Below are positions 58,536 through 62,936 of a DNA stretch of 64,000 bases, in pieces. The notes below the pieces were generated by a model. The model saw only the letters and a program-made list of their open reading frames with translations. It did not search any database and was not told the origin of the DNA. The translations under genes were made by a program, and so were the position numbers. The DNA lies in contig SVEY01000007.1 in the NCBI GenBank assembly GCA_015057165.1, positions 51,537 through 115,536 of the forward strand, read 5' to 3'. The stretch comes from Lachnospiraceae bacterium. GTDB taxonomy: Bacteria; Bacillota; Clostridia; Lachnospirales; Lachnospiraceae. Position 1 is the stretch's first letter, and every line of letters begins with the position of its first letter.

Positions 58536-61100
58536 TTACGGACGTCCGTGGCAGAACTTATATTTCTTACCAGAACCGCAAGGACATGGACTATTAGGTC
58601 GAATCTTCTCTTCCTTTCTACGCATAGGTCCTCTAACACTTTCTTCCTTGTTGGTTCCAGTTTCTTTCGCGACTTCTTCACGTTCCATCTTCTTCTCAAT
58701 ACGAACACGATAAAGCATCTGAACAGTCTCTGTACGAATCGCTTCGTTCATAGCATCTACCATATCGTAGCTTGCCATCTTGTATTCATCAACAGGATTA
58801 CGCTGACCATAAGCCTGAAGTCCAATTCCCTGGCGAAGCTGATCCATATCATCGATTTCTTCCATCCACTTCTTATCAATAACACGAAGCAAGACAATTC
58901 TCTCTATCTCTCTAAATGCATCAGGATCATCGAATTCCGCTTCTTTCGCCTCATACATCTCGTATGCTTTCTTAAGGAGTTTCTCCTTAAGATCATCCAC
59001 ACAATTTATATCATCAAGTGTACTTGCATCGAACTTCTCAAAAGGAATAATCTCTCGTATAACTGAATTCATCTCTGACAAATCCCAGTTATCAACGGCG
59101 ATTTCATCAGAACAGCACATATCAATTGCGTTATATAAATCAGTCTCAACCATGTTAAGAATCTGTTCTTTCATGTTTTCACCAGCAAGAACTCTTCTTC
59201 TCTGTTCGTAGATTAATTCACGCTGGTCATTCATAACCTGATCATACTCGAGAAGATTCTTTCTTATTGCAAAGTTGTTACTCTCTATCTTCTTCTGAGC
59301 ATTCTCAAGAGCATTACTTAACATCTTATGCTGAATCTCATCAGTCTCAGCAACTCCGAGAGAATTAAATACAGTCATAAGTCTCTCAGAACCGAATAGC
59401 CTCATAAGGTCATCTTCAAGTGATACGTAGAATTTAGATTCTCCCACGTCACCTTGTCGACCTGAACGACCACGAAGCTGATTGTCAATACGGCGAGACT
59501 CGTGACGCTCTGTACCTATAATCTTAAGTCCGCCTGCTGCCTTTGCTTCTTCATCAAGCTTAATATCAGTACCACGACCAGCCATATTAGTAGCAATTGT
59601 AACAGCGCCGTGTTTGCCTGCTTCTGCTATAATCTCAGCTTCTTTCTCGTGGAATTTCGCATTTAACACATTATGAGGTATTCCTTCTTTGCGAAGACGT
59701 CTTGATATCTCCTCTGATACATCAATTGTGATTGTACCAACAAGAACTGGCTGTCCCTTTGCATGCGACCTCTTAACTTCCTCAATAACGGAAATGTACT
59801 TTCCATTCTTAGTCTTATATACAGCATCGTCATGGTCAACTCTTATCATTGGCTTATTAGTTGGAATCTCAATAACATCCATTCCATAGATATCTCTGAA
59901 TTCCTGTTCCTCTGTAAGACCTGTACCAGTCATACCAGCTTTCTTATCATATTTATTAAAGAAGTTCTGGAATGTAATATTAGCAAGAGTCATGGACTCT
60001 CTCTTAACCTTAACATGCTCTTTTGCTTCAATAGCCTGATGAAGACCATCTGAATAGCGACGCCCAGGCATAATACGACCTGTAAAGGAATCTACTATCA
60101 ATATCTGATCGTCTTGAACTACATAATCCTGATCTCTATGCATTAAGTTATGCGCACGAAGAGCAAGAATTACATTATGCTGAATCTCAAGGTTCTCTGC
60201 ATCAGCCAGGTTATCAATATGGAAGAATTCCTCTGTCTTCTTAACACCCTGAGCCGTAAGGTTAACTACCTTGTCTTTCTCATTAACAATAAAGTCTCCT
60301 GTCTCCTCTTGAACAACTCCCATTATGGCATCCATTTTAGAGAATTCAGGAAGATCCTCACCTCTCTGCAACTGACGAGCCAACACATCACACATCTCGT
60401 ATAACTTAGTTGACTTACCAGACTGACCAGAAATAATGAGTGGTGTTCTAGCCTCATCAATAAGTACTGAATCCACCTCATCAATAATGGCATAATGAAG
60501 ACCACGCTGTACAAGCTGGTTCTCGTATACAACCATATTGTCACGAAGATAATCAAAACCATCTTCATTATTAGTTATATAAGTAATATCAGCATTGTAT
60601 GCTTCTCTTCTCTCATCCCTGTCCATATCACTAAGTACAGCCTTACAGGTTAATCCAAGGAATTCATGTAATTTACCCATCTCTGTAGCATCACGCTTAG
60701 CAAGGTAATCGTTAACTGTAACAATATGAACGCCTTTGCCTTCTAAGGCATTAAGATATGCTGGAGCTGTTGCAGCTAATGTCTTACCTTCACCAGTCTT
60801 CATCTCAGCAATACGACCCTGATGAAGGATTATACCACCAATAAGCTGTACTCTAAAATGCTCCATACCAAGAACTCTTCTTGAAGCCTCTCGAACTACT
60901 GCAAATGCTTCTACAAGAAGATCGTCTAATGTCTCTCCTTCACTAAGTCTTTTCTTGAAGTAATCTGTCTTAGCCTGCAATTCTTCATCAGAAAGTGACA
61001 TCATCTCTGAGCGAAGTGCTTCAATCTCATCAACAGTCTTCTCTACAAGTTTAATTTCTCTCTCACTATGAGTTCCGAAAATCTTATCTAGTAAACTCAT
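58536..61100 (-). CDS. secA: Preprotein translocase ATPase SecA
   Basis: [33 protein letters not shown]-terminal [18 protein letters not shown]. Confidence 0.97.
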
Positions 61101-61347
61101 CTACTCACTCCTTAATATCATTTATTCCAAAACAAGTGTATTTCTATTAATTTCACACTTTGTAATTATATCAGAAAATAGCTTTATATTAAATATGTAT
61201 TTCTATCCAAGGCTGTTAAAACCTTTGCATTAATAAAAAAATATGCTTGACAAAAGCGTTCTTTGTATAAATTATCTGATAACTCCAGCAAGTTTTTTGA
61301 CAATTTGCGACAATTTAAGTTATTTGACTAAATTTTCTAATTTTTTA

Positions 61348-61376
61348 TTGACAAAATTCTAAATGAGTAGTATTAT
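61348..61376 (+). promoter_or_regulatory. Strong promoter TTGACA-N17-TATTAT for the ncRNA
   Basis: Perfect -35; two more TTGACA hexamers at 61247 and 61297, ~50 bp apart. Confidence 0.75.
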
Positions 61377-61382
61377 TCTATT

Positions 61383-62045
61383 ATCAACAAACCAAGACAA
61401 ACTAAATCACTTAATTAAGTGATTAAGGTTGATAGATAGGATGTAAAAGTATTGTGGAAGGTTTATACCAGCGATGAAGTAAAGATATCGTGGACAATAC
61501 TTTTAGATTAATAAAATGACTGGTAGTTGACCTAGAATTAAAAGATATAAACTTAATATAGTAGTAAATGTAGTATAGTAAAAAAGCGGTTATCAATTAG
61601 TGAGGATTAGATGAATCGCAATAAACTTTAAATTCTAGGTTAACAGGTCATTTAAAAGAAGCCTATCGAATAACCAATCCATAAGGAGAGGTTATATAAT
61701 GAGATTCTTAAGAAAAGGAGGTACGGACCACCAGCATAAGTAATTGGTAAAACGGAACCAGGCTCAACTGGTATATGTTGAGATCTTATTCGACGAAGAT
61801 GCAAATCCAACTTTTAGATAGAAGCTATTTAAGCTGTGCCGTAGGGCGAGAGAGTGAAGTTAAAAGGAATGAAGCAAAGGGAATTGAGTAAGAAGAAAAG
61901 ATTTGATTTAATATAGATTAATCGAACTTAATAAAAATTTTATAGAAAGGTGGTACAGTCCATTGGACAGTATTGAGAACTCAAAATAAGAAGGGGTATC
62001 CTGATTGGTGACGAGAAAGCCAGCAAGATATCCCTTCTTTATGTT
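61383..62045 (+). ncRNA. Large (~660 nt) structured noncoding RNA candidate
   Basis: No ORF >60 aa; helices 61445-61455/61494-61504 (11 bp perfect), 61527-61539/61631-61643 (13 bp, one G-U), 61514-61520/61647-61653, 61586-61591/61614-61619, 61670-61675/61690-61695; terminator-like hairpin at end. Confidence 0.8.
61988..62043 (+). terminator. Terminator-like hairpin ending the ncRNA (possibly bidirectional with map)
   Basis: AAGAAGGGGTATC / GATATCCCTTCTT, 13 bp with one G-U. Confidence 0.75.
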
Positions 62046-62066
62046 GTGACATTATTCCTTATTTCA

Positions 62067-62936
62067 TTACCACGAAATCAATTCATACCCATCTTCTGTT
62101 ACAAGAATCTGGTATTCCCATTGCGCAGATGGTTTGCCATCTAAAGTCGACACTTCCCATCCGTTAATAGGATCAGTCTTAATAGTATGTTTGCCCATAT
62201 TAACCATAGGCTCAATAGTGAACATCATACCAGGAACCATTATCATTCCTTCTCCTCTGTTAGACACATAACTAACCCAAGGATCTTCATGGAATTCAAG
62301 TCCCACACCATGTCCGCCTATTTCTCTAACTATTGTATAACCATTATCATGTGCATATTCTTTAATTGCAGCACCAACATTTCCAATAGGTTCCCAAGGC
62401 TTAACTTCTTTAAGTCCAATATCGCAGCATTCTTTTGCCACCTTAACAAGCCTTTTCTTCTCCTCAGACACATCTCCTATCAAAAACATTCTTGATGAAT
62501 CTGAAAAGTATCCATCTAGAATTGTAGAACAATCTACATTAATGATATCTCCAGACTTAAGGACCACATCCTCTCCGGGAATACCATGACAGACCTGCTC
62601 ATTAACCGATGTACATACACTCTTAGGAAATCCATCATAATTAAGAGGAGCACATATGCCCCCCATCTTAGTCGTAACATCACTTACAATGTCATCTATC
62701 TCTTGAGTTGTCATTCCTTCACATATTTTCTCAGCAACGGCATCAAGGGCAGCCATATTAATCTTGGCACTCTTCTTGATACTCTCTACTTCTACAGGAA
62801 CCTTAATCAAATCATGATCTGGAACTTCATAACCCTGGTTGTATAGAGAATTAAGCTTATTATCGAAAGCTTCATGACACTGTTTATACTTCTTACCGCT
62901 AAGACACCAACATGGTGAATTTCTTCCTATCTTCAT
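62067..62936 (-). CDS. map: Methionine aminopeptidase type I with N-terminal SEC-C zinc motif
   Basis: CWCLSGKKYKQCH; VNEQVCHGIPG, VDCSTILDGYFSDSSRMF, GHGVGLEFHE, FTIEPMVN. Confidence 0.94.
   Translation of the reverse strand: MKIGRNSPCWCLSGKKYKQCHEAFDNKLNSLYNQGYEVPDHDLIKVPVEVESIKKSAKINMAALDAVAEKICEGMTTQEIDDIVSDVTTKMGGICAPLNYDGFPKSVCTSVNEQVCHGIPGEDVVLKSGDIINVDCSTILDGYFSDSSRMFLIGDVSEEKKRLVKVAKECCDIGLKEVKPWEPIGNVGAAIKEYAHDNGYTIVREIGGHGVGLEFHEDPWVSYVSNRGEGMIMVPGMMFTIEPMVNMGKHTIKTDPINGWEVSTLDGKPSAQWEYQILVTEDGYELISW

Follow-up and report, generated by a model that had tools for sequence, protein, structure and literature searches.

The bar minigenes of lambda are regulatory minigenes that carry a short open reading frame (ORF). 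A two-codon minigene of axe-txe acts in cis, possibly by mRNA stabilisation (PMC8708949), while STAB-SD sites bind 30S subunits without a start codon and block RNase J1 (PMC4113751, PMC3997798). Among the large ornate RNAs of bacteria, GOLLD reportedly binds ribosomes in pull-down experiments (PMC12286853). Here we describe a predicted RNA gene from a Lachnospiraceae bacterium whose combination of features is not shared by ornate RNAs, STAB-SD sites, minigenes or sponge RNAs, each of which has a single feature in common with it.

The window referred to throughout is the whole stretch of 64,000 nucleotides that was analysed (contig SVEY01000007.1). Within it, secA (58536-61100, reverse strand) and map (encoding a methionine aminopeptidase with a SEC-C motif; 62067-62936, reverse strand) are separated by 966 bases (61101-62066) containing no ORF above 57 aa, in agreement with the ORF-poor gap of ~960 bp described in an earlier, sequence-only reading of this DNA. 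The predicted structured RNA, of ~660 nt (61383-62045), lies on the forward strand, divergent from secA and convergent with map, and is preceded by a sigma-A type promoter on the same strand (TTGACA-N17-TATTAT, 61348-61376, with TTGACA at 61348-61353 and TATTAT at 61371-61376; 11 of 12 matches), which would place the RNA start near 61383. A second promoter-like site, TTGACA-N17-AATTAT, is found ~100 bases further upstream (61247-61275).

Folding of the region 61383-62045 gives a minimum free energy of -165.8 kcal/mol, whereas 20 dinucleotide shuffles give -122.3 +/- 5.6 (z = -7.7). A DNA search detected the RNA, at 79-99% identity, in six further species of the genus, a motif-A model recovered it from seven of the eight genus genomes, and the secA/map synteny is kept in all six of the other genus loci examined. 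In an alignment (A5) of six species, comprising that of the window and five relatives at 79-92% identity, there are 164 consensus pairs, 96.7% of pair cells are kept, and compensatory changes occur at 26 pairs, a result matched by none of 500 shuffles; sliding the helix partners as a control lowers pairing to 35-45%. Covariation is best in the long-range helices, where 9 of the 21 pairs that make up helices 5 and 6 covary, and helices 5, 6 and 8 (61514-61653) contain ten pairs with double-sided change.

Individual helices, all on the forward strand, are preserved to differing degrees. The two-part long-range helix (61514-61520 and 61527-61539, pairing with 61631-61643 and 61647-61653) closes an inner GCGGTT/AATCGC hairpin (61586-61591 with 61614-61619), and the 11-bp helix 3, AAAAGTATTGT/ACAATACTTTT (61445-61455 with 61494-61504), is nearly invariant in the genus. 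The RNA ends in a terminator-like hairpin, GAAGGGGTATCC...GATATCCCTTC, followed by a T-rich tail (61990-62041; helix 22, six double-sided pairs), which a simple terminator scan misses because its loop is 11 nt. At the other end, the 5' hairpin (61382-61434) contains a palindrome (61405-61424) within TATCAAC (61382-61388) and GTTGATA (61428-61434). The sequence-only reading had described the promoter, the helices, the terminal hairpin and this palindrome, and all are found with the sequence and position that it gave. It had also presented the palindrome as enclosed by the outer pairing, and here the comparison divides the claim: other species have different but still complementary palindrome stems, whereas the outermost TATCAAC/GTTGATA pairing is weakly conserved and drops out of the consensus fold. 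Its contention that so dense a pairing is hard to explain by chance agrees with both the z score and the covariation, and the check by homologs and covariation that it had proposed came out in favour of the fold, above all of the long-range helices.

Taken together, covariation, presence in seven of eight genus genomes, synteny, an own promoter and a terminal hairpin strongly support a large structured RNA gene at this locus, as the sequence-only reading had suspected. A decayed protein gene can be rejected as the source of the region, given that no long frame is conserved and that the fold persists although lengths (653-710 nt) change by amounts not divisible by three. Separately, a 14-codon frame, MRFLRKGGTDHQHK plus stop, at 61700-61744 at first seemed a conserved ORF, but is broken in two species.

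Comparison with described RNA families was negative. The cmscan search against Rfam 15 that had been suggested for this region gave no match at the gathering threshold and chance-level matches at relaxed thresholds, and 20 relatives were likewise without a match at gathering. No match to the window RNA or its relatives was obtained with the covariance models of ROOL, GOLLD and OLE, the conserved 3' half of GOLLD was likewise not detected, and the Rfam models for raiA, T-box, RNase P, tmRNA, 6S and HEARO were unmatched in the region. Rfam matches in the window as a whole are limited to an S10-Clostridia ribosomal protein leader (RF03136; 43781-43866, reverse strand, 87.9 bits) and a cobalamin riboswitch (RF00174; 58271-58478, reverse strand, 79.7 bits), the latter lying ahead of clustered ORFs for membrane proteins and ABC transporters that are likely to serve vitamin B12 uptake. 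Phage, plasmid and viral contigs contain no match to the class, and the phage or prophage setting, often near tRNA islands, that is typical of ROOL is not seen here, where the window contains no tRNA and the neighbours are the housekeeping genes secA and map. Consequently, given the Rfam negatives and the lack of phage, plasmid or viral matches, we do not file the RNA under ROOL, GOLLD, OLE or raiA. It resembles ROOL, GOLLD and OLE in being a large, highly structured bacterial RNA, yet differs in lacking sequence or CM similarity and phage linkage, in a modular core that can be as short as ~130 nt, and in its apparently translated mini-ORFs. The sequence-only reading had leaned towards a ROOL member or relative, a view left unsupported by the Rfam negatives, the lack of phage or plasmid association and the different conserved sequences; the new class that it named as an alternative is supported. 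Word and exact-sequence searches of the text of openly accessible papers returned no description of such a class.

The RNA is widespread within Lachnospiraceae. When no more than one mismatch is allowed, a 19-nt core, AAAGGAGGTACGGACCACC (61714-61732), recurs in 55 of the 299 genomes of the family, compared with 2 for a reversed control pattern, and a public genome scan for this core returned at least 119 contigs; among the 80 contigs listed, nearly all are labelled as Lachnospiraceae or its genera, which include Enterocloster, Lacrimispora, Blautia, Mediterraneibacter, Dorea, Roseburia and others. A covariance model (R1; 58 positions, built from 101 copies of the element around this core, element A) matches at least 120 of the 299 genomes, and this is a lower bound because a second model, R2, built on the hairpin discussed below, also finds members without a canonical element A. 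When R1 was applied to 390 genomes sampled at the level of the class Clostridia, seven matches resulted, all within Lachnospiraceae, so that no member outside the family was found in this sample. A TTGACA/TATAAT-like promoter lies upstream of 119 of 134 element-A sites, and a terminator-like hairpin typically follows 3' of element-A copies. Predicted lengths range from ~130 nt (L054) to ~700 nt in the genus of the window, with other members at ~130-250 nt. Flanking genes vary from genus to genus and, over 86 loci, the neighbour strand is no more biased downstream (55:31) than upstream (54:32); the copies therefore look like stand-alone RNA genes, and the equal bias on the two sides leaves no cis target gene evident. 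These observations support placing the locus, from its shared modules, in a previously undescribed Lachnospiraceae RNA class. One locus (L330, in genome G028) carries two entire copies of the RNA gene in tandem, ~500 bases apart, with terminal ORFs beginning GTG AAA CTT (MKLRFNS plus stop, and a close variant).

Two short modules recur across the class. Element A (61698-61755, forward strand; R1 match of 50.8 bits) is conserved family-wide and consists in the window of a Shine-Dalgarno (SD)-like AAAGGAGG, then GGUACGGACC, then CCA at the position of a start codon, then GCA UAA. Its consensus is an SD-like site, GGUACRGWCC, CCR (occasionally AAR) in place of the start codon, and an in-frame stop, arranged with the same geometry as element B; weaker R1 members keep the spacer and CC, with a looser or partial SD. 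Among such "dead" CCN modules, 133 of 177 have an in-frame stop within four codons, compared with 28 and 21 in the other frames. Median pairing energies to the anti-SD are -13.9 kcal/mol for dead and -10.6 kcal/mol for live modules, against -4.3 kcal/mol for controls, although selection of many loci by the AAAGGAGG pattern inflates these energies as well as the conservation of element A. Beyond the SD, no convincing extra complementarity of either module to 16S rRNA was found in two complete relatives, whose sequences were used because the assembly of the source genome yielded no 16S rRNA. We also observe that codon 3 of dead units is mostly ACN with the third base free (A, T or G, rarely C), a coding-like periodicity in units without a start codon. 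As in STAB-SD sites, known from cry3A and Gram-positive bacteria and proposed to hold 30S subunits, element A combines a strong SD-like sequence with the lack of a start codon (61714-61739). However, it resides in a stand-alone RNA gene, is followed by a fixed conserved sequence and an in-frame stop, and occurs in tandem and paired with live mini-ORFs. Moreover, the window's copy is ~330 nt from the presumed 5' end, away from the 5' position of STAB-SD sites; in many other members element A sits near the 5' end.

Element B (61945-61989, forward strand) comprises an SD (GAAAGGUGG), a spacer (UACAGUCCA) and a mini-ORF at 61963-61989, TTG GAC AGT ATT GAG AAC TCA AAA TAA, predicted to encode MDSIENSK. 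Immediately before the terminator, nearly all loci carry an SD-like site and, after a spacer that mostly ends in UCCA, a start codon opening a tiny ORF, whose stop abuts the terminator. Loci were selected without reference to the stop codon, and of the 132 left after dereplication 131 reach an in-frame stop within 15 codons; the ORF is five codons long in 70 and six in 36, starts with ATG (86), TTG (42) or GTG (4), and stops with TAA (59), TAG (43) or TGA (29). Of the codon differences that involve a single base, 55.6% are synonymous in frame, compared with 17.9% and 21.4% in the shifted frames, and typical peptides are MDEIV, MDSIV, MDNEM and LDSEH. These are clear signs that the terminal mini-ORF is translated, a case that rests on the wider family: within the window's genus the pattern is not decisive, second codon positions being as variable as third and one species (G007) having lost the stop. 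The features of a minigene (SD, start, 2-8 codons, stop, signs of translation) are found in element B family-wide, so that the "protein-free, non-coding" label originally given to the RNA needs correcting. Like element B, regulatory minigenes such as axe-txe and lambda bar pair an SD with an ORF of 2-5 codons; those are single and found in mRNAs or phage DNA, whereas the class described here carries arrays in a structured RNA. In many members a near-palindrome, GUCCAWUGGAC, spans the start codon of the terminal mini-ORF, and could fold into a small hairpin or mediate contact between molecules.

The class has, as a third module, a hairpin whose 11-nt loop, UGACGAGAAAG, is invariant; in the window this hairpin is located at 62001-62027 (forward strand; loop at 62009-62019) and is matched by R2. 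It occurs in 42 of 146 loci and is absent from 568 kb of flanks, and its stem covaries strongly (0.844 versus 0.240 when shuffled, 0 of 500). Members differ in where they carry it: ahead of A, in the stretch from A to B, or, as in the window, in the terminator. One further copy, with an 8-bp CCTTAAGG stem (L328, around 1508), is placed in the gap separating two protein genes, a short way upstream of an ileS-like ORF, where this module may be serving in an mRNA leader. Some members carry their modules in tandem arrays with units ~50-65 nt apart: the array of L265 runs from a dead unit through MK, MR, MK and MDR, each with its stop; the eight units of L274 mix CCA, AAG, AAA, CCG and ATG at the start position; and L253 has more than eight units.

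We favour the explanation that the RNA is a stand-alone structured scaffold carrying ribosome-docking modules, which protect the RNA in cis or titrate ribosomes, and give it a probability of roughly 45%, because the modules resemble blocked initiation sites and each half of the proposal has a published precedent. Each module consists of an SD-like site, a ~9-nt spacer (UACRGWCCA) and a codon in the place of a start, and is closed 2-8 codons on by an in-frame stop. Where that codon is AUG, UUG or GUG the module would be live and yield a tiny peptide; where it is CCR or AAR, the 30S subunit could dock but, for want of a start codon, could not start. In nearly every case the final module, the one at the terminator, is of the live kind. 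The sequence comparisons show the class, its covarying fold, the grammar of its modules and the translation signature of the terminal mini-ORF; we infer that the RNA is expressed and that its modules are occupied by 30S subunits and by 70S ribosomes that initiate briefly. In the first instance the effect would most likely be in cis, with ribosomes shielding the RNA from RNases as at STAB-SD sites and minigenes, while the purpose, of which we are less certain, would most likely lie in trans, with free ribosomes being held or sensed by an abundant RNA. Extended to the family as a whole, the idea that tandem start-less and minimal-ORF sites hold, meter or store ribosomes is a rather doubtful one.

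Ribosome docking accounts neither for the conserved GGUACRGWCC spacer nor for the UGACGAGAAAG loop, and for this reason the main rival is a sponge or scaffold for an RNA-binding protein, titrated by the GGUACRGWCC repeats and the UGACGAGAAAG hairpin in the manner of CsrB/RsmZ, with the mini-ORFs secondary. We regard this as possible, if on the unlikely side. Invariant loops in covarying stems at variable positions are what a sponge might display, as is an element copy number of 1 to 8 or more; spacer conservation exceeds the needs of an SD, and the L328 hairpin between protein genes also fits. Yet start- and stop-codon turnover and the synonymous bias of the terminal ORF would go unexplained, and the obvious partners fail: Hfq (PF17209) was detected in 0 of 299 Lachnospiraceae genomes, with control genomes positive, which also argues against an Hfq-dependent sRNA, and CsrA, the best known candidate, is uncorrelated with the RNA (60/60 vs 94/85, p=0.72). 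This last result also counts against the specific proposal of a CsrA-sequestering sponge of the Gram-positive kind acting through ANGGA motifs in A and B. ACGGA, AAGGA and AUGGA do occur in the elements, and CsrB and RsmX/Y/Z resemble the class in having a variable number of short GGA elements with an own promoter and terminator; however, half of the RNA-positive genomes are without CsrA, GGA is lost in many elements, and the elements themselves are SD-, start- and stop-like, so that we reject this variant as scarcely credible.

Other readings fare less well than a general sponge. An RNA-only assembly of the ROOL/GOLLD/OLE kind, in which the fold, perhaps as a multimer with GUCCAWUGGAC pairing between copies, is itself the function, would suit the size and the density of long-range pairing in the window's genus, and GOLLD's reported association with ribosomes (PMC12286853) adds to its appeal; we nonetheless consider it improbable, as there is neither an Rfam match nor a phage link, and as the ornate domains are confined to particular lineages, the rest of the class measuring only ~130-250 nt. 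Little credence is due to the view that the RNA is simply the mRNA of a short peptide such as MDEIV or MDSIV, for although the translation signature is clear and the Met-Asp start conserved, residues 3-5 vary widely (MDSIV, MDNEM, MIEVQ, LETDF), lengths run from 5 to 8 or more, and a pentapeptide needs no long structured RNA. Finally, the abutting of stop and terminator means that a ribosome on the terminal mini-ORF would overlap the 5' arm of the terminator, as in an attenuator leader controlling read-through to a downstream gene. This is very unlikely and was rejected: map, the next gene in the window, is on the opposite strand, neighbours differ, and the 86 loci show no downstream-specific orientation bias.

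The covarying hairpin with its invariant 11-nt loop offers a handle for finding a partner. Conserved "dead" minigenes alongside apparently translated pentapeptide ORFs form an architecture that we have not found described for a stand-alone structured RNA, and the class occurs, with no Rfam match, in at least 40% of the sampled genomes of Lachnospiraceae, a dominant gut family in which Hfq was not detected. Its existence raises the question of whether an RNA can evolve to dock ribosomes without making protein, and what the cell would gain from this. If the family-wide reading, in which such RNAs hold, meter or store ribosomes, is true, they would stand to the ribosome, in concept, as 6S RNA stands to RNA polymerase.
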